Source: Cytophagales bacterium (GTDB lineage Bacteria > Bacteroidota > Bacteroidia > Cytophagales > Cyclobacteriaceae). From it: DNA of 39,971 nucleotides. Below the pieces are notes generated by a model, which was not told the origin of the DNA, searched no databases, and was given only the letters and a program-made list of their open reading frames with translations. Made by a program: the position numbers and the translations under genes. Shown here one piece after another: positions 10,501 through 32,116 of the stretch; within the stretch, counting starts at the first letter, position 1, and the number at the start of each line of letters is the position of its first letter. Where the stretch lies: positions 1-39,971 of the forward strand of contig JADBYK010000109.1 in NCBI GenBank assembly GCA_020403045.1, in the 5' to 3' direction.

Positions 10501-12222
10501 CTATTTTTTTACCTGCACTTTGAACACCCATGCATACTTGCCGGGTCGGTTGCTTTCGGTTTGCAAATTATCAGGAATGGAAATTTGAACATCCTTTCCT
10601 GTCTGGGTCCACTTTAGTGAACTCTTTGCGCCTAACATCGTCACTTTGGTACCAGCAATAGGTGCAATGTTCTTTATTGACAACGTCTTGCCAGGCCATA
10701 CCGTGCTATGTACATAAACATACTTACCCTCTTTGCTTTTTGTAAAATATGTATCACCATCCTTGGTAGAACTCCACGGCCGAGTGCCATAAATACCTTC
10801 GCCATTCATCTTCAGCCAGGCGCCTAATTCTACTAGCCTGCTTCTCTGAACCTCAGGAAGTTTACCTGATCCATCAGGGCTCACTACCAAAAGTAAGTTT
10901 CCGTTTTCTGCCACAATCTTGACAAACATTTTAACAAGGTCAGCACTGGAAAGTGAACTCTGGTCATCATCCTGCCAGTTGTATCCGAACGCAGGGCTTA
11001 TGGAGCGGCACACTTCCCACTTTTTTGTGATGTCGACTTCGCCAATGGTGAATTCAGGCGTACCATAATCTCCTAACTGAGTAGACGAAAGATAAATCTT
11101 CATTGCCTTTTCCATCTCACCCTTTTTCATCAACTCGCCCACCTGAGCAAGTTCAGCTTCAGAAAGTGTCGTGCCAGCTCTATTATTTATCACAACATCT
11201 TTTCGGCCTGTTGCCTGATTATAAAAGTATGCGGATAGCTCAGCCGCGCGGCTGACAGAAACCGGACTTCCCCAACCTCCATCATACCAAACCAAATCCG
11301 GATCGAATTTATCAACGGCTTCTTTGAAAGAAGGCATCATATAATCTGAGAAATAATTCCGAACAGGAATTTTTCCAGAAACCATTCGGTCGTAAATCTC
11401 CGGAAAGTAACTTACCAAAGGTGTTGCTCTCGGAATCTGGCCGAGCTGATCCTGAAAAATAGCGAGATCTTTTGTAGGATCCCACTGACTCAATGGTCGG
11501 TCAACAATTACAGGGTACTCCCACTCGGAAACTGAAAAATAGAAACCTAGTTTCATACCACGTGCTTTTGCTGCCGCAGCCAGCTCCTTATAAATATCTC
11601 TTTTGGGTCCCATCTCTACCGCATTTCGTTTAGTGTAAGAAGATTCCCACATCGTCCAGCCGGCATGATGTTTTGAAAACGGAACGTAATATTTAGCTCC
11701 CGCTTCAACAGCCAGATTCATGTATTCATCTGCATTGAGATTGGCACCTGTTAGCATCGGCAGCAAATCATCTCTTCGAAAATCTGTTCCGAATGTTTTG
11801 TCATGATACCCTTTGTATCGGTAGTCCATCAGAAATTCATACCAATCGGGATAGGAACCACCTGTGCTTGCTTCTGCTCCTTTCTTAGGTGCATAACCAG
11901 CCGATGACCAGGGACCCCAGTCAAGAAAAATACCCAGTTTGGCGTCCTGAAACCACTCTGGTATGGCGTGTTTAGCGAGGGATTCAACGGTTGGTTTGTA
12001 TGCACCCTTTCCGTTTACTTCTTCAATTTTTTTAACTTCTTCCGCGGCCTTCTTCATCATCTCTGCTGAAAACTTGTCGCGAAGTTCTTCGATCGTGTAT
12101 TTATATCGAAAGGGTTGGAAATTGACCGGGCGTTTCGGTTGTTCTTGTGCCGTCTGTGCCAGTACATTCGCTTGAATGAAAAGACATATGATAGCAACAA
12201 ATAATACTCTCAAATACTTCAT
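10501..12222 (-). CDS. Alpha-L-fucosidase, GH29 (second of a tandem pair)
   Basis: GH29 enzymes remove alpha-linked L-fucose with retention. The protein has a signal peptide, then the family's His-His-Ala-Gly-Trp-Thr-Met-Trp motif, a Tyr-Phe-Ser-Val-Ser-Glu-Trp-Glu-Tyr stretch, and Asp-Leu-Val-Trp-Tyr-Asp-Gly-Gly-Trp-Gly, whose second Asp is at the nucleophile position. A C-terminal beta domain follows. The ATG at 12222 was preferred over an upstream GTG at 12246, because it directly precedes the basic, hydrophobic signal sequence. It is 573 residues long and starts 28 bp after its paralogue. Export beyond the inner membrane is likely; the exact location is not clear. Confidence 0.9.
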   Translation of the reverse strand: MKYLRVLFVAIICLFIQANVLAQTAQEQPKRPVNFQPFRYKYTIEELRDKFSAEMMKKAAEEVKKIEEVNGKGAYKPTVESLAKHAIPEWFQDAKLGIFLDWGPWSSAGYAPKKGAEASTGGSYPDWYEFLMDYRYKGYHDKTFGTDFRRDDLLPMLTGANLNADEYMNLAVEAGAKYYVPFSKHHAGWTMWESSYTKRNAVEMGPKRDIYKELAAAAKARGMKLGFYFSVSEWEYPVIVDRPLSQWDPTKDLAIFQDQLGQIPRATPLVSYFPEIYDRMVSGKIPVRNYFSDYMMPSFKEAVDKFDPDLVWYDGGWGSPVSVSRAAELSAYFYNQATGRKDVVINNRAGTTLSEAELAQVGELMKKGEMEKAMKIYLSSTQLGDYGTPEFTIGEVDITKKWEVCRSISPAFGYNWQDDDQSSLSSADLVKMFVKIVAENGNLLLVVSPDGSGKLPEVQRSRLVELGAWLKMNGEGIYGTRPWSSTKDGDTYFTKSKEGKYVYVHSTVWPGKTLSIKNIAPIAGTKVTMLGAKSSLKWTQTGKDVQISIPDNLQTESNRPGKYAWVFKVQVKK

Positions 12223-12250
12223 GGGTGTAGATTTTAAGGTTGACACGTAA

Positions 12251-13960
12251 TTATTTGACTTGAATTCTTATGGCAGTTGAATATTTACTTGGTCTGTTGG
12301 CTTCTGTTTGCAATTCAGGTGGCAGACTCACTTCAATGTCGTCACCTACCTGCTTCCATTTTAGTTGACCTTTATATCCCAAATGAGTAATTCTGGAATT
12401 CTTGGTTGGTGTAATATTTTTTAGTTTAATCAGCTGTCCAGGCCAGATGGTGTTGAAAGCGTAAACGAACTTTCCATCTTTACTTTGTGTGAAATAGATG
12501 TCTCCGTCTTGCTGAACCTTCCAGGGTCGTGTTGAATAAATTCCCTCACCGTTTATTTTCAACCAATCACCCAGATCGGTTAGTCGTTTTCTTTGCACAT
12601 CGGAAAGCTTACCTGAGCCATCCGGGTTGATCACCAACAACAGATTCCCGTTACCGGCAACAATACCAACAAACATTTTTATTAAGTCTCCGCTTGATAG
12701 CGAATTGGATTCATTGTCCTTCCAGTTATACCCAAACGCGGGACTAATCGATCGACACACCTCCCACTTCACTTTGGAATCGATCTTACCAATGTGATAT
12801 TCTGGTGTGGTGTAGTCACCCAGCTGCTTATTGTTTGAAACAAGTTCAGTGAGTGCCTCATCATTTCCCGTTTCTCGAAGTTTTCTAATCTCTTTCAATT
12901 GCTCGGCAGTAAACGTGCTGCCCGCACGGTTATTGATAACTACGTCTTTTCTTCCTTGCGCCTGATTGTAGAAATAAGCAGACAGTTCTGTTACACGGCT
13001 GCCCGAAGCAGGTGTGCCCCAGCCTCCATCGTACCATACCAGGTCAGGGTCGAATTTATCCACTGCTTCTTTAAACAATGGCATCATGTAGTCTGCGTAG
13101 TAATCACGAACCGGAATTTTTCCCGAGAGCATTCTATCGTGGATGGCCGGAAAAAAACTGGCATAAGGCGTTGGTCTTGGCAGTATTGCCATTGCATCCT
13201 GAAACACAGCGAGGTTTGGAGTTGGATCCCATTGACTAATTCGCTTATCAACAATGACTGGATATTCCCACTCAGCAATTGAAAAGTAGAGAGCAAATTT
13301 CAAGCCTCTCTTCCTTGCTGCTTGCGAAAATTCCAATTGAATGTCGCGTTTGGGCCCCATCTCTTTTGCATTTCTGAAGGTATAGTTGGATTCCCACATG
13401 GTCCATCCGGCATGATGACGACCAAAGGGAACAAAATATTTAGCTCCTGCCTTCACCGCTAAATCCATATAGTCTTCCGCGTTCAGATTTTCTCCTGTGA
13501 GCAACGGAAGAAAATCATCTCTTCTGAAATCCACACCCCAAATCGAATCATGATAGGGCTTATAGGAGTAGTCCATTAAAAACTCATACCAATCCGGATA
13601 AGACCCACCCGTACCAAGGCTTGGGTCACGTGGGCTTGCGTATCCTGCCGCAGACCATGGCCCCCAATCAAAGAAAATACCCAGCTTTGCATCCTGAAAC
13701 CATTCGGGCATGGGATGCTTGGCAAGTGACTCGGGAGTTGGCTTGTAGGCACCTCGCTCATTAAGTTCTGTCATTTTCTTTACATCTTCAGCCGCTCGCC
13801 TCATCATATCTTCTGAGTACTTCTGGTGAAGTTGCTCAATCGAATATTTATACCGGAACGGCTTGAAATTAGCGGGTCTTTTGGGTTGCACCTGCTGAGC
13901 CGACATCGACAAGGAAATCATTGTCATTGCAACTGCAAAAATAGTCTTGATGATTTTCAT
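12251..13960 (-). CDS. Alpha-L-fucosidase, GH29 (first of a tandem pair)
   Basis: This close paralogue of the next gene has the same domain order: signal peptide (about 1-21), GH29 catalytic domain with His-His-Ala-Gly-Trp-Thr-Met-Trp and the nucleophile region Asp-Leu-Val-Trp-Tyr-Asp-Gly-Gly-Trp-Gly, and a C-terminal beta domain. The two proteins are near-collinear along their whole length, so they arose by tandem duplication, yet differ enough to suggest different linkages or acceptors. The ATG at 13960 was chosen over an upstream TTG at 13984. A candidate operator lies at 14048-14067, 87 bp upstream, so this is the first gene of a fucosidase-fucosidase-porter operon. Confidence 0.9.
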   Translation of the reverse strand: MKIIKTIFAVAMTMISLSMSAQQVQPKRPANFKPFRYKYSIEQLHQKYSEDMMRRAAEDVKKMTELNERGAYKPTPESLAKHPMPEWFQDAKLGIFFDWGPWSAAGYASPRDPSLGTGGSYPDWYEFLMDYSYKPYHDSIWGVDFRRDDFLPLLTGENLNAEDYMDLAVKAGAKYFVPFGRHHAGWTMWESNYTFRNAKEMGPKRDIQLEFSQAARKRGLKFALYFSIAEWEYPVIVDKRISQWDPTPNLAVFQDAMAILPRPTPYASFFPAIHDRMLSGKIPVRDYYADYMMPLFKEAVDKFDPDLVWYDGGWGTPASGSRVTELSAYFYNQAQGRKDVVINNRAGSTFTAEQLKEIRKLRETGNDEALTELVSNNKQLGDYTTPEYHIGKIDSKVKWEVCRSISPAFGYNWKDNESNSLSSGDLIKMFVGIVAGNGNLLLVINPDGSGKLSDVQRKRLTDLGDWLKINGEGIYSTRPWKVQQDGDIYFTQSKDGKFVYAFNTIWPGQLIKLKNITPTKNSRITHLGYKGQLKWKQVGDDIEVSLPPELQTEANRPSKYSTAIRIQVK

Positions 13961-14047
13961 AGGCAATAAATTACTGGTTTTCAAAAAAGTCCGATTAAGT
14001 TCGTCAGGATAAAAATAACGTTGTGATTGACCGAAACAATCCTGCTC

Positions 14048-14115: not shown

Positions 14116-15333
14116 TCACGAAATTGCAAGTGCAGGATTACCCGGACCAAAGTGCTTAAGCATTACAATCGGATCGGTCTTCGAGGTATTCATTATTTTA
14201 ACGCCTTCTATTGCTGCCTTTTCACTAACGAAATACTCATCATGGGTAAGTTGACCGTATCGAATAAGTGCTGGCGTTTCAATGTCCCAGACTCCAAACT
14301 TTCCATGACCTTGCATCATGATCATGCCATAAGCTGCCTGATCTTTCATGGTGACGGTTACTCCGGGAGAAATAGTCAATTCGGTTGCACTGAAATCAGC
14401 GGATTTGTAACAAACCCAATTCTCAGTATAGCCTTCCGATTTCATTTCTTCAGGCTTTTTTATTGGCTTCGGTTTCATGAACCGTGTGCTCATCATATTC
14501 GGATCCACGTTCAACTCCCAATCCAGTACACTCATGAGATGATCAAAATCTCCCAATTTAGATTCAGGTGTGCAATTCCATAACAATTCTTCTGGGATGA
14601 TAGCGTCATTCACTAAAGATTGATACATCGCAAAAACATCGGACGCTTTTTGTGGCTCATACGTACACAAACTTCCCGGAGCATGTAACAAGCCCGGAGG
14701 AACATCCCATCCGGTGCCTGGCTCCAATTGAAAGGCTTGTGAGTAAGCTGTAATCTTGTTATCACCTTTTGCGAAATTGATGAGGCATTGTTTAATCGTG
14801 TCTTTACTGGTGCCAGGTGTTATACCAAAGAATGTATACGGAAAATCACCACCATGATTATTTAATTGAGGGGGAAAATAATAAGCTTCTGGCTTTCCCA
14901 ATTGCCCAACAAGTTTTGCCTTGTCATCATTGTGATGGACGTGATGAGGCAGAGGTCCTTTATTATCAAAGAACTTTGAATACATAGGCCAGGCTCCGTA
15001 CTTACGCCATAGCCGATCACCGATCAATGAACTCTTTAGTTCATCAATAGCATCTTTTAATAAAAATTGAATTTCCTTTTTTCCATCTTCAAAAACCACA
15101 GCACTCAGCCCCTCATTTTTTCCAGTCAATGGACCATTTTTGGCCGGTGTTGTAGACGCCAACCAACGTTCATCAATGCCTCCGCGTTGACCGCCCAAGA
15201 CATAATAATCATCGGGGTGTAACTTAATTCTTCTGCCAGGCACACAAAATGAGCGAGGAACCCAAGTGGGTGCCAACCGGAGTATTCCGTTTCCTTGATC
15301 GAATGCTCGTTGAGCGTATTGAATGTTTTCCAT
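14116..15333 (-). CDS. Cupin-type protein resembling class I mannose-6-phosphate isomerase; role unknown
   Basis: The 405-residue protein looks like a double-cupin, phosphomannose-isomerase-like fold. A metal-binding cluster is visible at His130-His131-Val-His133-His134-Asn-Asp-Asp, with a later Pro-Pro-Gly-Leu-Leu-His-Ala-Pro-Gly motif of the type that supplies another metal ligand. There is no signal peptide, so it is cytoplasmic. It follows the DUF4432 epimerase-like gene by 14 bp, so the two form one operon in a fucose locus. An isomerase or epimerase acting on the free sugar is plausible. If so it could conceivably stand in for the missing ketol-isomerase, but nothing in the sequence proves this. 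Confidence 0.6.
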   Translation of the reverse strand: MENIQYAQRAFDQGNGILRLAPTWVPRSFCVPGRRIKLHPDDYYVLGGQRGGIDERWLASTTPAKNGPLTGKNEGLSAVVFEDGKKEIQFLLKDAIDELKSSLIGDRLWRKYGAWPMYSKFFDNKGPLPHHVHHNDDKAKLVGQLGKPEAYYFPPQLNNHGGDFPYTFFGITPGTSKDTIKQCLINFAKGDNKITAYSQAFQLEPGTGWDVPPGLLHAPGSLCTYEPQKASDVFAMYQSLVNDAIIPEELLWNCTPESKLGDFDHLMSVLDWELNVDPNMMSTRFMKPKPIKKPEEMKSEGYTENWVCYKSADFSATELTISPGVTVTMKDQAAYGMIMMQGHGKFGVWDIETPALIRYGQLTHDEYFVSEKAAIEGVKIMNTSKTDPIVMLKHFGPGNPALAIS

Positions 15334-23801: not shown

Positions 23802-24821
23802 ATGAAGAGGCCAGTATTAGAAATAGACGAAACCTCCACAATACCTAAGTATCGGCAAGTGGCCGATTACATTATCTCCAACATCGGAGAAGGGATGATG
23901 AAAGTAGGAGATCGTATTCCATCCATCAACGAAACAAGCGAAGAGTTTTTGCTTTCGCGGGACACTGTCGAAAAGGCCTATAAGAATTTAAGAAGGAGAG
24001 GTATTATTACTGCAGTTCACGGGAAAGGTTTTTATGTTTCCAGTACTTCGCGAAAAGAAGGAAAAACAATTTTACTAGTCTTTAATAAGTTAAGTGACCA
24101 TAAAAAAGCGATCTACAATTCTTTTATTAAAAAATTGGGCGATACGGGTAGTGTAGATTTACAAATTCACAACTCAGACAATAAGATATTGGAGAAAATT
24201 ATCATTGAAAATTTGGGTAAGTACGATTACTTCGTCATCATGCCTCACTTGCGGCTCGAAACTGATAGTGTAAAAGATGCCATTAATAAAATTCCAAAAG
24301 AAAAATTATTATTAATTAATAAAGATCTGGAAGGTATTCAAGGCAACTACGGATGTGTGTATGAGGATTTTGAATCCGATATAAGACAGGCTTTATTGAC
24401 AGGCATTGAACGTATTAGGAAGTATCATAAGCTTTTTTTAATCTTTCCAACTGAGAATTTTTACTGCACAGGAATTCGCGATGGGTTCACAAACTTCTGT
24501 AAACGCAACGGCTTTGAGTTCGAAGTTATTGAGCATGCACACCATCATGAAGTAAAAGCTCATGAATTGTATGTTGCGATTGAAGAAACTGATTTGGTGG
24601 AAATTGTAAAGAAAGCCACAATAAAAAAATTAAAGCTGGGGAAAAACTTTGGAATTATCGCTTATAATGACTCACCCTTCAAAGAAATCTTGGCCGGTGG
24701 CATTTCCGTACTAAGTACAGATTTTGACCGCATGGGTGCTGAAATTGCAGATATGATTCAAACAAAAACACAACGCAAAGTAAAGAACCCCTTTTCTCTT
24801 ATTCTAAGGAGTTCTGTTTAG
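23802..24821 (+). CDS. GntR-family transcriptional regulator with sugar-binding domain
   Basis: Residues about 10-78 form a GntR winged helix (Pro-Lys-Tyr-Arg-Gln-Val-Ala-Asp-Tyr-Ile ... Leu-Ser-Arg-Asp-Thr-Val-Glu-Lys-Ala-Tyr ... Gly-Lys-Gly-Phe-Tyr-Val). Residues about 85-339 form a LacI/periplasmic-binding-type effector domain, the same layout as AraR and the Bacteroides fucose-operon repressor FucR. The 339-residue protein is divergent from susCD and upstream of the catabolic operon. It most likely represses both until L-fucose or a metabolite binds. The recurring GACTGTACAGGAT element is its probable operator. Family assignment is firm; effector identity is inferred. Confidence 0.9.
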   Translation: MKRPVLEIDETSTIPKYRQVADYIISNIGEGMMKVGDRIPSINETSEEFLLSRDTVEKAYKNLRRRGIITAVHGKGFYVSSTSRKEGKTILLVFNKLSDHKKAIYNSFIKKLGDTGSVDLQIHNSDNKILEKIIIENLGKYDYFVIMPHLRLETDSVKDAINKIPKEKLLLINKDLEGIQGNYGCVYEDFESDIRQALLTGIERIRKYHKLFLIFPTENFYCTGIRDGFTNFCKRNGFEFEVIEHAHHHEVKAHELYVAIEETDLVEIVKKATIKKLKLGKNFGIIAYNDSPFKEILAGGISVLSTDFDRMGAEIADMIQTKTQRKVKNPFSLILRSSV

Positions 24822-24934
24822 GATCTAAGCTTTTTATAGTATTCGCAAAAACAATTGATAATTGTTACATTAGAATATACTCCATCCAAAGGAAATTTCT
24901 AGCAGTCAACAATTTCTTCTGTCTTCATACACCC

Positions 24935-24951
24935 ATGATAGTACAGAACAG
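24935..24951 (+). promoter_or_regulatory. Weak candidate GntR operator upstream of the catabolic operon
   Basis: ATGATAGTACAGAACAG agrees with the 23771 site at 12 of 17 bases by hand count, keeping the GTACAG core. It lies about 94 bp upstream of the aldolase/dehydrogenase start. The palindrome CAGTTAACTG (24949-24958) overlaps it. Confidence 0.35.
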
Positions 24952-24960
24952 TTAACTGAT

Positions 24961-24990
24961 CTGACCATTGTAATTTAGCAGAAAGGTCAG
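24961..24990. repeat. Inverted repeat in the catabolic operon's 5' region
   Basis: CTGACC (24961-24966) and GGTCAG (24985-24990) are a perfect 6-bp inverted repeat with an 18-bp spacer, 55-84 bp upstream of the aldolase start. It could be a second regulator site or an RNA leader hairpin; sequence does not decide. Confidence 0.35.
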
Positions 24991-25044
24991 TTGACACTAA
25001 AACTCAATCTACCATAAAGTACGTATACTGAAGATATTCTGATC

Positions 25045-27186
25045 ATGACAACCCTCAAACATTCAGCCATAGTAAGTTCAGCTACATTCAAACATGTATC
25101 CTATTTGTGGGATGAAGTTAAAGCCCTTGAATTAAACGGCAATGAAGTTGAATTACTTATCTACCGATCCAATTTACTAGGCGCTGATTTAAGGCTTACC
25201 AATTATGGCGGGGGCAATACATCATGCAAGGCAATCGCAAAAGATCCCCTTACCGGCAACGAAACCGAAGTGATGTGGGTTAAAGGATCCGGTGGCGATT
25301 TGGGTACTCTCAAACATTCAGGACTTGCTGCTTTGTATGTGGATCGTTTGCGGAGCCTCAAAAACATCTACAAGGGTATTGAGTTTGAAGACGAAATGGT
25401 AGAGCTTTTTAATCACTGCATTTTTGATCTCGCTTCAAAGGCACCTTCTATTGACACCCCTCTTCACGGCTTTTTACCCTTCAAGCATATAGATCACCTA
25501 CATCCCGATGCCGCCATTGCCATTGCAGCCTCAAAGAATGGGAAAGAAATAACAAGAGATCTATTTGGCGGTAGAATAGGTTGGGTCGAATGGCAAAAGC
25601 CAGGCTTTGATCTCGGCTTAAAATTAAAAAAGTGTCTTGACGAAAATCCGGGAATACAGGGCATCATGTTGGGCTCACATGGTTTGTTTACATGGGGAGA
25701 TACAGCGTATGAAAGCTATGTCAATACACTTGAAGTAATTGAGAAATGTGCTTTGTACCTACAGGCCAATTATGGCAAATCGAGGCCGGTATTTGGTGGT
25801 GTTAAAATAGAATCTGTAAAAAAAGAAGAACGTAGTAAAATAGCAGCAAACATAGCTCCCATCCTGCGGGGGCTGTGCTCAAGTGAAACACGAATGGTCG
25901 GTCATTTCACGGACGATGATCGCGTATTAGAATTCATTAACTCAAAAGATCTTGATCAACTAGCCCCCTTGGGCACCAGCTGCCCGGATCATTTCTTGCG
26001 TACCAAGATCAGCCCATTGCTGTTAAACATCAAGCCTGAAGACGGGGATGCCGATGCAAAAGTATTGCACACAAAGTTTCTTCCGCAATTTGAGGGCTAC
26101 CGAGCAATGTATGCAGAATACTATGCGACTTGCAAGCACAACAACAGTCCCGCCATGCGCGATCCGAATCCAGTGGTAATCCTATACCCGGGAGTCGGAA
26201 TGTTCACTTTTGCAAAAGACAAACAAACTGCACGGGTTGCAGCAGAGTTCTATATCAACGCAATTAATGTAATGAAGGGAGCAGAAGCAATTTCTTCATA
26301 CATCTCCCTCCCCAGGCAGGAAGCATTTAACATTGAATATTGGCTTCTTGAGGAAGCTAAGTTGCAACGAATGCCCAAGCCAAAACCCCTGACCGGTAAG
26401 GTGGCTCTGATTACTGGAAGTGCTGGAGGTATTGGCAAGGCTATTGCCAAAAAGTTTGTTCAAGAAGGAGCATGTGTCATAATTAATGACAATGATGCCA
26501 ATCGGCTGGCAGAAGCCGATGAAGAATTCAAAAAACAGTTTGGAAAAGATGCCTTTGCCTCTATACCACTTGACGTAACAAATACGAATCAGATCACCGG
26601 CCTATTTCAGTTTTCGACATTAGCCTTTGGGGGAGTAGATATCGTTGTCAACTGTGCTGGTGTTTCGATTTCAAAACCTATCGAAGAACACACTGAAAAA
26701 GATTGGGATCTTTTATATGATGTGTTGGTAAAAGGTCAGTTCCTGATGACGCAAGCTAGCATTTCAGTGATGCGTAAGCAAGGCATCGGAGGGGATATTG
26801 TTAATATCGTTAGCAAAAACGCTTTAGTGTCTGGCCCAAATAATGCCGCTTATGGATCTGCGAAAGCAGCTCAACTTCATTTGAGCAGGTTAAATGCTGC
26901 TGAATTAGGCAAAGACAAGATTCGTGTGAACGTGGTAAATCCAGATGCAGTAATTTCCGAAAGTAAAATCTGGGAAGGAGCCTGGGCTGAAGGTCGGGCT
27001 AAAGCCTACGGTGTATCCGTTGAAGAACTTCCTTCCTTCTACGCAAAACGCACCTTACTTAATGAAATTATCTTACCCGAAGACATTGCTAATGCTTGTT
27101 TTGCTTTCGTGGGCGGGCTATTGAATAAATCTACAGGCAACGTATTGAATGTGGATGGCGGAGTAGCGATGGCGTTCGTCCGATAA
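25045..27186 (+). CDS. Bifunctional rhamnulose/fuculose-1-phosphate aldolase - lactaldehyde dehydrogenase
   Basis: The 713-residue protein joins a class II aldolase (about 30-400; Asn-Tyr-Gly-Gly-Gly-Asn-Thr-Ser near 53, later His-Gly-Leu-Phe-Thr-Trp-Gly) to a short-chain dehydrogenase (about 450-713). The SDR part has a nucleotide-binding Thr-Gly-Ser-Ala-Gly-Gly-Ile-Gly, Asn-Cys-Ala-Gly and catalytic Tyr-Gly-Ser-Ala-Lys near 602. Such fusions cleave 6-deoxyketose-1-phosphate to dihydroxyacetone phosphate and L-lactaldehyde and oxidise the aldehyde to L-lactate. The name in databases is usually rhamnulose-1-phosphate aldolase, but the fucosidase context points to L-fucose. It is the first gene of the rightward operon, after a 223-bp regulatory region. 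Confidence 0.88.
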   Translation: MTTLKHSAIVSSATFKHVSYLWDEVKALELNGNEVELLIYRSNLLGADLRLTNYGGGNTSCKAIAKDPLTGNETEVMWVKGSGGDLGTLKHSGLAALYVDRLRSLKNIYKGIEFEDEMVELFNHCIFDLASKAPSIDTPLHGFLPFKHIDHLHPDAAIAIAASKNGKEITRDLFGGRIGWVEWQKPGFDLGLKLKKCLDENPGIQGIMLGSHGLFTWGDTAYESYVNTLEVIEKCALYLQANYGKSRPVFGGVKIESVKKEERSKIAANIAPILRGLCSSETRMVGHFTDDDRVLEFINSKDLDQLAPLGTSCPDHFLRTKISPLLLNIKPEDGDADAKVLHTKFLPQFEGYRAMYAEYYATCKHNNSPAMRDPNPVVILYPGVGMFTFAKDKQTARVAAEFYINAINVMKGAEAISSYISLPRQEAFNIEYWLLEEAKLQRMPKPKPLTGKVALITGSAGGIGKAIAKKFVQEGACVIINDNDANRLAEADEEFKKQFGKDAFASIPLDVTNTNQITGLFQFSTLAFGGVDIVVNCAGVSISKPIEEHTEKDWDLLYDVLVKGQFLMTQASISVMRKQGIGGDIVNIVSKNALVSGPNNAAYGSAKAAQLHLSRLNAAELGKDKIRVNVVNPDAVISESKIWEGAWAEGRAKAYGVSVEELPSFYAKRTLLNEIILPEDIANACFAFVGGLLNKSTGNVLNVDGGVAMAFVR

Positions 27187-27195
27187 TTTTAACGT

Positions 27196-27561
27196 TTGAA
27201 CCGAGTGGATTACATAATGAAATCGTACCAAGGCAAAGTAGAAGAATACAAAAAGCGGCATGATGAAATTTGGCCGGATAATGTACAACTTTTGAAAGGA
27301 AGTGGTGTCTTTGACTACTCTATTTTTTTTGATGCAAAATCGTTTCTAGTAAACCATGCCGAATTGGCGAATGCGCAAGAGGAACCCGATGTGGCGCGTG
27401 CGGAGAAAATGTTAAAAGAAGCCTTTGAAGTGAATACCCGCCCCATAGTGGCCGAGGCTATTTGGCGAAATATCGTCAATCCTAGTGTGGTTTTTCGAGA
27501 AGCAAAAACAAGAATGCTGGTTGCAGCGAGAGGCAAACAAAGTGTTGCAACGGGTTTATGA
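27196..27561 (+). pseudogene. In-frame chimera: N-terminus of L-rhamnose mutarotase (RhaM) joined to C-terminus of an L-rhamnose isomerase (RhaI type)
   Basis: Residues 1-46 match RhaM mutarotases: Arg-Val near the start and Glu-Tyr-Lys-Lys-Arg-His-Asp-Glu-Ile-Trp-Pro at 17-27, including the catalytic-site Tyr/His region. They continue through Gly-Val-Phe-Asp-Tyr-Ser-Ile-Phe-Phe-Asp. The usual second half with its Trp-Trp motif is absent. Residues 47-115 instead align with the end of TIM-barrel L-rhamnose isomerases (Ala-x-x-x-Leu-Val ... Gln-Glu ... Ala-Glu-x-x-Leu-x-x-Ala-Phe ... Arg-Pro-Ile-Val-Ala-Glu ... Asn-Pro ... Phe-Arg). The only possible starts are TTG at 27196, GTG at 27205 or an internal ATG at 27217. 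A deletion removing about half of rhaM and most of an adjacent isomerase gene explains this. It overlaps the kinase start by ATGA. Function as either enzyme is unlikely. The family comparison is from memory. Confidence 0.7.
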
Positions 27562-28997
27562 TAAAAGTCACAGCAATTTTTGACGTTGGCAAAACCAACA
27601 AGAAGTTGCTCTTGTTCGATGTCCACGGAAAAGTTTTAAAAGAGAAGCTGACGAAATTTAAGACGATCAAAGATGAGGATGGTTTTCCCTGCGAAAACAT
27701 TCTTGCGATTACAAAATGGATAAAAAAAGAATGGGGGCAACTCTTAACTTCGAAGGAATTCCTACCAATAGCCGTCAACTTTACTGCTTTCGGTGCCAGT
27801 TTTGTGCACCTAGATGTAGACGGAAAACCAGTTGCCCCGGTTTATGATTACCTCAAACCCATTCCAAAGGCAATTTTAAAAAAATTTTACGTTCAAATCC
27901 GTGTAAAGCACGGCCAAAATTCAAAAGAGTTTGCTGAAACTACCTGCTCGCCAAAGTTAGGAATGCTGAATTCGGGCATTCAACTTTTTTGGATAAAGAA
28001 ATGTAATCCGAAATTGTGGGAAAAGATCGACTGCTCTTTACATTTACCTCAATACCTTTCTTTTCTAATTACTAACCAACGTGTGAGTGATTACACTTCT
28101 ATCGGCTGTCATACAGCATTGTGGAATTTTAGAAAATTTAGATATGCTTCATGGGTAAACAAAGATATCGAAACCAAATTGGCGCCCATCGCTTCTGATC
28201 GATTTACCTTGATTCATGAAAAAAAGAATGGCCAAAGGGCAATTAAAGCCGGTTATGGATTGCATGACAGCTCCGCAGCATTGATACCCTATTTACATCC
28301 TTCCAATCAAAGTTTTATTTTAATTTCCACTGGCACCTGGAGTATTCAACTTAACCCTTTTAATTCATCTTCACTCACCAATGAACAATTACACAAAGAC
28401 TGCCTTTGCTATATGCAAACAGATGGAAGCCAAGTGAAGGCGTCCAGATTATTATTAGGTAAGGAACATGATTTTCAAGTTGCCCGAATAGCCAAACATT
28501 TTAGGGTAAAGGGAGGGTTCAGCAAACATCTTGAATTTGATGAAACTATTTTTTGGAAAGTGAGAATACAAATAAAAAATACGTTTTATCCTGCCTGCAT
28601 GGAAGGCAGTGGGCCATTTCCCAAGCCCCCCGAAGATGTGTGGGATATTTCCTGCTTTGAAAATGAAGTGGAGGCCTATCATAGCTTGATTACTGAACTG
28701 GTTTCTATGCTGAAAGTCTCCATACAACTCATCGATGTGCCAAGGGTAAAAACTTTTTTTGTCGATGGAGGATTTGCGAGAAACAACGTTTTCATGAATA
28801 CCCTTGCCTACTCTCTCTTTAAAAAGAAAGTAGTCGCTTCCTTTCTTCCTCAGTCTACCGCATTGGGCGCTTTCCTATACCTTCATGAACTAAACGGTAT
28901 TTCAAACGAAAATTTCAACCGTTACTTTAAAGTCTATCAATACTCAAAAAAATATAAGGATATAAATCGAGTTACAAGAAATCGATCAATTAAATGA
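27558..28997 (+). CDS. FGGY-family carbohydrate kinase (rhamnulokinase/fuculokinase type)
   Basis: FGGY kinases phosphorylate ketoses with ATP. The 479-residue protein begins with the phosphate-1 motif Phe-Asp-Val-Gly-Lys-Thr-Asn-Lys-Lys (8-16). It has Ser-Thr-Gly-Thr-Trp-Ser-Ile near 255 (adenosine/phosphate-2 region) and Phe-Phe-Val-Asp-Gly-Gly-Phe-Ala-Arg-Asn near 398-407. Length fits rhamnulokinase and fuculokinase. Its ATG overlaps the stop of the mutarotase-isomerase chimera, so translation was once coupled to it. With the aldolase downstream in the pathway, L-fuculose or L-rhamnulose is the expected substrate. The kinase needs a ketose, yet the isomerase that should supply it is deleted from this operon. 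Confidence 0.85.
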   Translation: MIKVTAIFDVGKTNKKLLLFDVHGKVLKEKLTKFKTIKDEDGFPCENILAITKWIKKEWGQLLTSKEFLPIAVNFTAFGASFVHLDVDGKPVAPVYDYLKPIPKAILKKFYVQIRVKHGQNSKEFAETTCSPKLGMLNSGIQLFWIKKCNPKLWEKIDCSLHLPQYLSFLITNQRVSDYTSIGCHTALWNFRKFRYASWVNKDIETKLAPIASDRFTLIHEKKNGQRAIKAGYGLHDSSAALIPYLHPSNQSFILISTGTWSIQLNPFNSSSLTNEQLHKDCLCYMQTDGSQVKASRLLLGKEHDFQVARIAKHFRVKGGFSKHLEFDETIFWKVRIQIKNTFYPACMEGSGPFPKPPEDVWDISCFENEVEAYHSLITELVSMLKVSIQLIDVPRVKTFFVDGGFARNNVFMNTLAYSLFKKKVVASFLPQSTALGAFLYLHELNGISNENFNRYFKVYQYSKKYKDINRVTRNRSIK

Positions 28998-29007
28998 AGT
29001 CTGAAAA

Positions 29008-30162
29008 ATGAAGTTGACATTCAATACCAACTATCCCTCCATCGAAGATCTTCGCGGAAAAGCGATAAAAAGAATACCTCGTTTTGCATTTGAATATCTG
29101 GATGGTGGTTGCAACGAAGATATAAACCTTTACAAAAACACCAGCGAGTTGAGAGCTGTAGAACTGGTACCTCGGTATTTAAAGCCACAGGTCAATGTTG
29201 ACATGACAACGGAACTGTTTGGACATGTTTACGATGCTCCTTTTGGAATTGCGCCCGTGGGTCTGCAAGGTTTGATGTGGCCTAACGCAGCAGAGATTTT
29301 GGCCAAGGCTTCCGCGCAGCATAACATACCGTTTATATTAAGCACCGTAACTACTTCGAGTATTGAAAGAATAAGTGAGTTGACAGAAGGCAAAGCTTGG
29401 TTTCAACTCTATCATCCTGCAGACAATGCATTGCGCGATGACATTATCAAAAGATTGCAAGCAGCACGTTGCCCGGTATTGGTTTTATTGTGCGATGTGC
29501 CCTCTTTCGGCTACCGTCCACGCGATATACGCAATGGCCTTGCCATGCCACCCAAGATGTCGTTAAAAAACATTATTCAAATTTTGGGCAAGCCAATTTG
29601 GGCATTGAACACCTTGTTTCATGGACAACCCTCTTTCGAAACACTTAAGCCATACATGGATAAGAACTTAAACATGAAGCAACTTGGCCTATTTATGAAT
29701 CAAACTTTTTCAGGGAAGTTAAACGAAGAGAAAATTTCTGCTATACGCGATCTGTGGAAAGGCAAATTAGTTTTGAAAGGTGTGGCAAGCGAGGAAGATA
29801 CTGAGCTCGCAATTAAACTTGGCTTGGATGGCATTATTGTATCGAACCATGGAGGAAGACAGTTGGATGCTGGAGAATCTGCCATTCATTCAATGGTTCC
29901 CATCGCAAGGAAGTTTAACGACAAGATCAAGGTTATGATGGATAGCGGGATTCGCTCTGGTCCTGACGTGGCAAGAGCGCTGGCGAGTGGCGCAGAGTTT
30001 ACTTTTTTGGGAAGATCATTTATGTATGGTGTTGCTGCTCTTGGTAAAGAGGGTGGAGACCATACTATTTCCATTTTAAAAACACAACTCAAGCAGGTGA
30101 TGGAACAAGTAAGTTGTGCTGACAGTAAGGGCCTACATCGATACTTAAAAAATTACTCTTAA
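29008..30162 (+). CDS. lldD: FMN-dependent alpha-hydroxy-acid dehydrogenase (L-lactate dehydrogenase type)
   Basis: This TIM-barrel flavoenzyme oxidises L-lactate to pyruvate, passing electrons to the respiratory chain. The 384-residue protein keeps Tyr30 (Phe-Glu-Tyr-Leu-Asp-Gly-Gly), Lys257, and the active-site Ser-Asn-His281-Gly-Gly-Arg284-Gln-Leu-Asp motif. The flavin phosphate loop Asp-Ser-Gly-Ile-Arg-Ser-Gly and Leu-Gly-Arg-Ser follow. It lies 11 bp after the kinase and completes the route from deoxysugar: the aldolase/dehydrogenase makes L-lactate and this enzyme makes pyruvate. Substrates other than lactate (for example glycolate) occur in the family, but the context favours lactate. 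Confidence 0.88.
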   Translation: MKLTFNTNYPSIEDLRGKAIKRIPRFAFEYLDGGCNEDINLYKNTSELRAVELVPRYLKPQVNVDMTTELFGHVYDAPFGIAPVGLQGLMWPNAAEILAKASAQHNIPFILSTVTTSSIERISELTEGKAWFQLYHPADNALRDDIIKRLQAARCPVLVLLCDVPSFGYRPRDIRNGLAMPPKMSLKNIIQILGKPIWALNTLFHGQPSFETLKPYMDKNLNMKQLGLFMNQTFSGKLNEEKISAIRDLWKGKLVLKGVASEEDTELAIKLGLDGIIVSNHGGRQLDAGESAIHSMVPIARKFNDKIKVMMDSGIRSGPDVARALASGAEFTFLGRSFMYGVAALGKEGGDHTISILKTQLKQVMEQVSCADSKGLHRYLKNYS

Positions 30163-31726: not shown

Positions 31727-32116
31727 TCACGTGGATTTAATCGTGATAAATACTTTCTCCTTTCGTTCCAAAGCTTCCAGCACAAGTACTTTTAGCTTTT
31801 CATTCGCTAAGCGCGATTCGTTTCCCTTACCTGGTCCGGTCAACTGAGTAACGGGTGCTATGCATCCTTTCATTTGCGCCATTGCGTCATTCGCAGGAAG
31901 AATAAGTATCCAGCTTCTATCCGGCACATCCACAACCAACAAGTGCAACCCGAATTTTTTTATGAATCGCTTCCGAAGCTCGTACCTTCCTTCAGGGATG
32001 CAGGAAACATTCCGCTGATTCTGGAGCCAGGGGAGCTCGATGGTGTTGCACACCACGAGCTTAAGTTCCCCATTGGTTCCTTCAGGGTCATAAGTCCTGA
32101 ATAACTCCAGTTCCAT
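31727..32116 (-). CDS. DUF5675 family protein
   Basis: This 129-residue protein shows the DUF5675 pattern: Cys-Asn-Thr-Ile-Glu-Leu-Pro-Trp, Cys-Ile-Pro-Glu-Gly-Arg-Tyr, an Ile-Leu-Ile strand, and Met-Lys-Gly-Cys-Ile-Ala-Pro-Val. The family occurs in phages and Bacteroidota genomes; the role is unknown, with a lysis or cell-wall function sometimes supposed. In homologues I recall a His after the Ile-Leu-Ile strand (Ile-His-Pro-Ala-Asn); here it is Leu (CTT), one base from His, which may have cost activity. The ATG overlaps the TAA of the upstream gene by one base. No signal peptide. Confidence 0.7.
   Translation of the reverse strand: MELELFRTYDPEGTNGELKLVVCNTIELPWLQNQRNVSCIPEGRYELRKRFIKKFGLHLLVVDVPDRSWILILPANDAMAQMKGCIAPVTQLTGPGKGNESRLANEKLKVLVLEALERKEKVFITIKST

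Follow-up and report, generated by a model that had tools for sequence, protein, structure and literature searches.

A probable rhaM–rhaI deletion relic between constrained genes of a deoxysugar operon in a Cytophagales bacterium

A deoxysugar operon of a Cytophagales bacterium holds, between its aldolase and its kinase gene, a single open reading frame of 121 codons (27196..27561, + strand; TTG start, TGA stop) in the place where relatives carry genes for L-rhamnose mutarotase (RhaM) and L-rhamnose isomerase (RhaI), raising the question of whether the frame encodes a new protein, reflects a misassembly, or is what was left of two genes after a deletion. The window analysed, a stretch of 39,971 nucleotides, is an entire contig (C12) of a 4.02 Mb genome in 124 contigs with an estimated completeness of 98.96%. 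The operon runs from a GntR-family regulator (23802..24821, +; PF00392), a homologue of which also occurs near the rha operons of several relatives, through an intact RhaEW-type bifunctional rhamnulose-1-phosphate aldolase/lactaldehyde dehydrogenase (25045..27186, +; NF006191, 1377 bits against a cut-off of 1240), the fused frame, and an intact FGGY sugar kinase (27558..28997, +; PF21546 and PF00370) to an intact FMN-dependent, LldD-like L-lactate dehydrogenase (29008..30162, +; PF01070, E = 7.6e-115). The kinase falls in a divergent subclade common to two relatives, G028 and G008, and reaches just 40.5 bits against the rhamnulokinase model (cut-off, 528 bits). The sections of PMC3870299 that deal with RhaEW describe its genes as always lying within rha loci and the Chloroflexus enzyme as converting L-rhamnulose-1-phosphate to DHAP and L-lactate. 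Compared with the rha catabolic locus outlined in those sections, RhaEW, a sugar kinase, and LldD follow one another in operon order here too, whereas an intact RhaI, an intact RhaM, and RhaT are missing.

The earlier note, made from the letters of this DNA, had read the frame as a chimera of mutarotase and isomerase, and profile and PDB searches agree with that division: residues 1–46 correspond to RhaM (rhaM remnant, codons 1–46, 27196..27333, +) and residues 47–121 to the C-terminal end of a RhaI-type L-rhamnose isomerase (rhaI remnant, the last 75 codons, 27334..27558, +). The head matched the Pfam rhaM model (PF05336, E = 2.2e-11, residues 6–71) and its NCBIfam counterpart (TIGR02625, E = 3e-12, residues 3–70), and in the PDB residues 3–49 paired with the mutarotase 6hhn and residues 8–49 with 2qlx. 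The match of the tail to RhaI is likewise significant (TIGR02635, RhaI_grampos, E = 1.3e-6, residues 47–92 on model positions 309–354 of 378; TIGR02629, E = 7.3e-5, residues 47–111), and residues 47–120 paired with residues 351–426 of the L-rhamnose isomerase of P. stutzeri (L-RhI, 2hcv/3itt). The RhaM models extend beyond residue 46; the PDB pairs and the alignments set the change-over at about residues 46/47 (27333/27334), so that the junction lies where it had been placed, near 27334. Of the two start codons that had been proposed (TTG or GTG), the sequence has TTG, at the codon that pairs with the customary start Met of RhaM, and the proposed ATGA overlap between the stop of the frame and the start of the kinase can also be read directly (27558..27561, +). 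A downstream ATG at 27217 offers a possible alternative start, and each of the remaining five frames of 27196–27561 contains between 2 and 10 stops.

Measured against RhaM (PF05336; 6hhn, 2qlx), the fusion keeps residues 1–46, including the RHDEIWP and DYSIF motifs, but lacks the C-terminal ~60 residues and has TTG in place of ATG and WPDN in place of WPEL. Measured against RhaI (TIGR02635/TIGR02629; L-RhI, 2hcv/3itt), residues 47–121 align with the final 75–78 residues, but the first ~351, metal-binding part included, are missing, and within the tail a conserved R-T-D and one glycine are altered or deleted. The remnant has 75 codons compared to 78 in relatives, a difference made up of two in-frame indels in the alignment, and matches residues 352–429 of the G028 RhaI at 53%. 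The metal-ligand motifs of RhaI (the Glu, Asp, and His set of the TIM barrel) precede residue 350 in the alignment, and the remnant starts at 351; the ligand residues of the P. stutzeri enzyme are taken as the counterparts of those of the Lactobacillus enzyme. The metal ligand residues of the Lactobacillus L-rhamnose isomerase are those named in the relevant part of PMC10908623. The fusion scores below the cut-off of the full-length RhaI model (27.6 bits; cut-off, 531) and of the RhaM equivalog TIGR02625 (46.8 bits; cut-off, 99.6). It does score above that of PF05336 (44.3 bits; cut-off, 23.4), yet the likeness to intact RhaM stops at about residue 46 of 105, and annotation from the Pfam model alone would label the frame a mutarotase. 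Because it joins half a mutarotase to an isomerase tail without the metal-binding part, the fusion product is, judged from its sequence, very unlikely to be an enzyme.

Comparison with the G008 and G028 genes places the junction at GAT|GCA (Asp46|Ala47; 27331..27337, +). The bases GATGCA found here compare with GATGCG in rhaM of G008 and with TATGCA (G028) and TATGCG (G008) in rhaI, and ATGC is likely to have been a microhomology in the same codon phase of both genes, as far as ancestral junction bases can be inferred from homologues this diverged. In relatives, rhaM and rhaI are adjacent, intact, and in the same order. Across nine genomes (G016 and G045, with both matches present but on different contigs, were left out), the two fusion points lay farther apart than here by 1,218–1,346 bp in eight, a range compatible with the in-frame deletion of 1.2–1.5 kb that had been proposed, and by 1,740 bp in the ninth (G020), where an extra PDDEXK_3 gene, presumably of the GxxExxY type, stands between rhaM and rhaI. 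A PDDEXK_3 gene occupies this position inside the rha operon in both G020 and G067 (L158:6824-7321 and L161:1262-1711), and a similar-looking frame precedes rhaI in G028 (L002:1-330), where no rhaM matched.

The presence of RhaI close to RhaEW is the rule among related loci. Loci were found by way of the rhaEW gene, and among the best 80 of a longer list RhaI occurred at 77 within the stretch examined, with RhaM between RhaEW and RhaI at 30. The three of these 80 without RhaI are L056, which ends 168 bp past rhaEW, and L044 and L050, for which there was no RhaI or kinase match within 6 kb after rhaEW. Both of the latter are from Mucilaginibacter, where rhaT-rhaEW stands behind a rhamnosidase gene (checked with Pfam for L044, by eye for L050) and the rha genes look split. 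Within the genus, a rhaEW DNA match was present in 21 other genomes (62 searched; a 29-bp match in G003 was not counted) and RhaI in 20 of these 21 (60 searched for RhaI), the exception being G022, a 78% complete genome in which the rhaEW match is partial. The operon of G008 follows the order seen here, including the identically placed lactate dehydrogenase (L156), and G028 has both the nearest RhaI tail and the nearest kinase. Directly upstream of rhaEW, five relatives carry rhaT (PF06379; G028, G008, G065, G020, and G034 at L155, L156, L157, L158, and L159, respectively), at the site of a 223-bp gap here (24822..25044, +) in which no RhaT remnant was seen (best match in 24601–25100, E = 0.49). 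No full-length homologue of the 121-residue fusion was among the matches listed for 58 relatives' genomes, nor among those listed, down to E = 1.7e-8, for 390 genomes of the order; the second result carries weight because a homologue over the full length would be expected to place higher in the list. The existence of a family of intact fusions, the outcome that would have spoken against the deletion proposed in the earlier note, was rejected on these listed matches.

Among the families searched, no replacement turned up elsewhere in the genome. RhaI had no match other than the remnant, with a query that found its target in 22 further genomes from the genus, and the missing part of RhaI was absent elsewhere in this 98.96% complete genome. 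No protein of the genome matched the fucose isomerase C-terminal domain (PF02952), RhaA (PF06134), RhaT (PF06379), or the GH78 rhamnosidase domain (PF17389), although for each of them 2–5 of the 14 control genomes gave a match. The genome-wide search for isomerases (RhaI, RhaA, and the fucose isomerase C-terminal domain) was empty except for the remnant, as anticipated from the suggestion that the strain lacks the isomerase of the operon; in an assembly of 124 contigs at this completeness a missing gene could sit in a gap. Three PF01261 TIM-barrel proteins are encoded in the genome, all on other contigs, and by eye two have a signal-like N-terminus (RRKFL or RREFI) and the third a hydrophobic leader. 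Since RhaT and a PF17389 rhamnosidase were not found, besides the loss of the isomerase, the use of L-rhamnose by this route seems from gene content to be gone.

Both remnants have departed from positions that are otherwise held almost without exception. Among near-invariant positions (columns held by ≥90% of intact homologues), the rhaI remnant was changed at 15 of 35, compared to a maximum of 5 and a median of 1 for 91 intact tails (six rows cut by contig ends were left out); the five departures of the G028 tail all fall where the relic departs too, three with the identical residue and two with another. The rhaM remnant was changed at 5 of 22 such positions (40 heads: maximum, 3; median, 0). 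For the two neighbours tested, the counts were 11 of 464 in RhaEW (86 others: median, 7; maximum, 30) and 22 of 139 in the kinase (82 others: median, 3; maximum, 28; G028, 25; G008, 28). The trees gave a corresponding picture, with the longest terminal branches belonging to the tail (0.93, longest of 92 sequences; sister G028, 0.125) and to the head (0.62, longest of 41, a set in which G028 has no head), while RhaEW (0.20, rank 8 of 87; G028, 0.19) and the kinase (0.40, rank 26 of 83; G028, 0.34) held lower ranks. Constraint was thus relaxed in both remnants and not in RhaEW or the kinase. The two codon-sized indels lie at sites without an indel in all 91 intact tails. Differences between the tail and that of G028 were highest at third codon positions (0.32, 0.25, and 0.52 for positions 1, 2, and 3), implying that the tail was constrained for much of its history, whether prior to the fusion or since. 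The loss of an open frame, which is usual in pseudogenes but not required of them, has not occurred, as no stop interrupts the 121 codons. DNA matches of at least 1 kb in the genus are 66–75% identical, and no genome near enough to date the deletion was found. On these sequence comparisons, the deletion is old and the remnant decaying.

The explanation that best fits these results, with a probability of roughly 0.86, is that the frame is an old, decaying rhaM–rhaI deletion relic and that the operon around it has kept its back end but not its rhamnose-specific front end. The earlier note was borne out on anatomy, deletion size, and inference. The ancestral operon would have been of the type rhaT-rhaEW-rhaM-rhaI-kinase-lldD, from which ~1.2–1.35 kb would have been lost by illegitimate recombination, probably across the ATGC repeat; as the repeat appears to share its codon phase between the two genes, the start of rhaM would have been joined in frame to the end of rhaI. 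The fused product would have had no activity, and its sequence has since changed much faster than that of rhaM or rhaI, which is the behaviour of a relic. RhaEW and the kinase are still constrained, presumably in the service of a different 6-deoxy sugar or ketose, and because the frame of the relic still runs into the ATGA overlap, its translation may hand ribosomes to the kinase by termination-reinitiation. Deletion-generated gene fusions and pseudogene remnants are a known kind in bacterial genomes, with which this locus shares the in-frame fusion of neighbours, the loss of the intervening DNA, and quick decay; it differs in that no stop interrupts the frame before the 4 nt it shares with the downstream gene, which is constrained. 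That the fusion is a gene relic, not a new kind of protein, is well supported. Two features fit less comfortably: the absence of a stop together with two later indels that are both multiples of three is tidier than plain neutral decay requires, and the kinase departs at 22 near-invariant positions against a median of 3, though its two nearest relatives show at least as many. The locus offers a clean case in which a transporter, a mutarotase, and an isomerase were lost while later steps of a sugar pathway remain constrained, which suggests that kinase and aldolase receive substrate from a source not yet described.

Several other explanations could produce a frame of this kind. A collapsed assembly, with normal rhaM and rhaI genes in the population whose ends were misjoined in the contig, or else a deletion of very recent date might be suspected from a single draft genome in which a run of eight T adjoins the junction. 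Misjoined live genes would, however, not carry changes at fixed positions in both remnants (15/35 and 5/22), nor two codon-sized indels at sites free of them in all intact tails, and the missing part is on no other contig; because both halves no longer look like working genes, neither a collapse nor a fresh deletion is likely to account for the frame, and this explanation, scarcely credible in view of the decay counts and the longest terminal branches, was rejected. It is also very improbable that the frame encodes a functional new chimeric protein with an activity of its own, such as sugar binding or partnership with the kinase. The 121-codon open frame with its two in-frame indels, the retained RHDEIWP motif of RhaM, and the smaller differences from the G028 tail at codon positions 1 and 2 (0.32 and 0.25) than at position 3 (0.52) are what such a protein would lead one to expect, but near-invariant residues have been lost in both halves, the terminal branches are the longest in their trees, no second genome with the fusion appeared among the matches listed, and the product would consist of half a mutarotase and a tail devoid of the metal-binding part.

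A sharper form of the deletion relic, tentative but to be taken seriously, holds that the relic is selected only as a translated leader, ribosomes ending at its TGA and restarting at the kinase ATG while its amino acids drift. The ATGA overlap has been kept, with intact rhaI running into the kinase start at the corresponding position in G028 and G008, no stop has arisen despite many changes, and both indels preserve the frame. The same pattern can nevertheless come about by chance, since under simulated random substitution the present frame stayed open in 0.30 of trials after 30 changes and in 0.12 after 60. As reported in the portions of PMC10666635 that concern short overlaps, termination-reinitiation takes place in E. 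coli gene pairs, where the final 15 nt of the upstream gene suffice, and at such overlaps in Haloferax as well; the experiments covered in those portions come from these two organisms and not from Bacteroidota, and if a short 3′ piece suffices, most of the frame need not persist. More elaborate, and improbable, is the proposal that the open frame alone is under selection, as a leader whose translation links the aldolase gene to the kinase gene, the operon having been redirected from L-rhamnose to another 6-deoxy sugar that is fed in by a non-homologous isomerase, possibly the cupin-like protein encoded upstream. In either form, the locus lends itself to asking, in a natural setting, whether an upstream gene that has died can survive as a translation leader.

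The cupin-like protein in question (405 aa; 14116–15333, − strand; labelled by eye) has HHVHH metal-type motifs and no family of its own in either Pfam or NCBIfam, and is possibly an uncharacterised cupin sugar isomerase. Genes for two tandem GH29 alpha-L-fucosidases (10501–13984, −) lie nearby, as do those for a sugar transporter and for SusC and SusD; the tandem fucosidases are present, yet the fucose isomerase C-terminal domain was not found in the genome. A local replacement, in which sugar freed by the fucosidase pair is isomerised by the cupin-like protein and L-fucose becomes the substrate of the rha back end, would draw on that missing domain, on the position of the cupin-like gene, DUF4432, the MFS sugar transporter, the two GH29 genes, and SusC/SusD ~1–16 kb upstream on the opposite strand, and on faint matches with class I mannose-6-phosphate isomerase (PDB, E = 0.23; TIGR00218, E = 0.12, in 1 of 6 family members). 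These matches are non-significant, however, the top PDB row being an unrelated designed repeat protein (E = 0.014), and none of the 6 family members has a Pfam match. The protein is 77–79% conserved in five relatives, where its gene lies beside DUF4432 and a TIM-barrel gene, with a Gfo/Idh/MocA-like gene at 4 of 6 loci, away from the rha genes. The TIM-barrel partner was not found in this genome (with a query that had no positive control), RhaI is also present in 5 of the 6 other genomes with the cupin-like gene, and among the titles of the literature searched none described a cupin replacing fucose isomerase. The replacement is for these reasons unlikely, and the idea in the earlier note that the local cupin protein compensates for the lost isomerase found little support, the gene of the relatives sitting in another cluster and 5 of the 6 other carriers having RhaI as well.

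Downstream of the operon, a DUF5675 protein (31727–32116, −) adjoins a 253-aa open reading frame without a Pfam family. Towards the end of the window, a HipA-like C-terminal domain protein (PF07804; 37235–38176, −) may be part of a toxin-antitoxin system.
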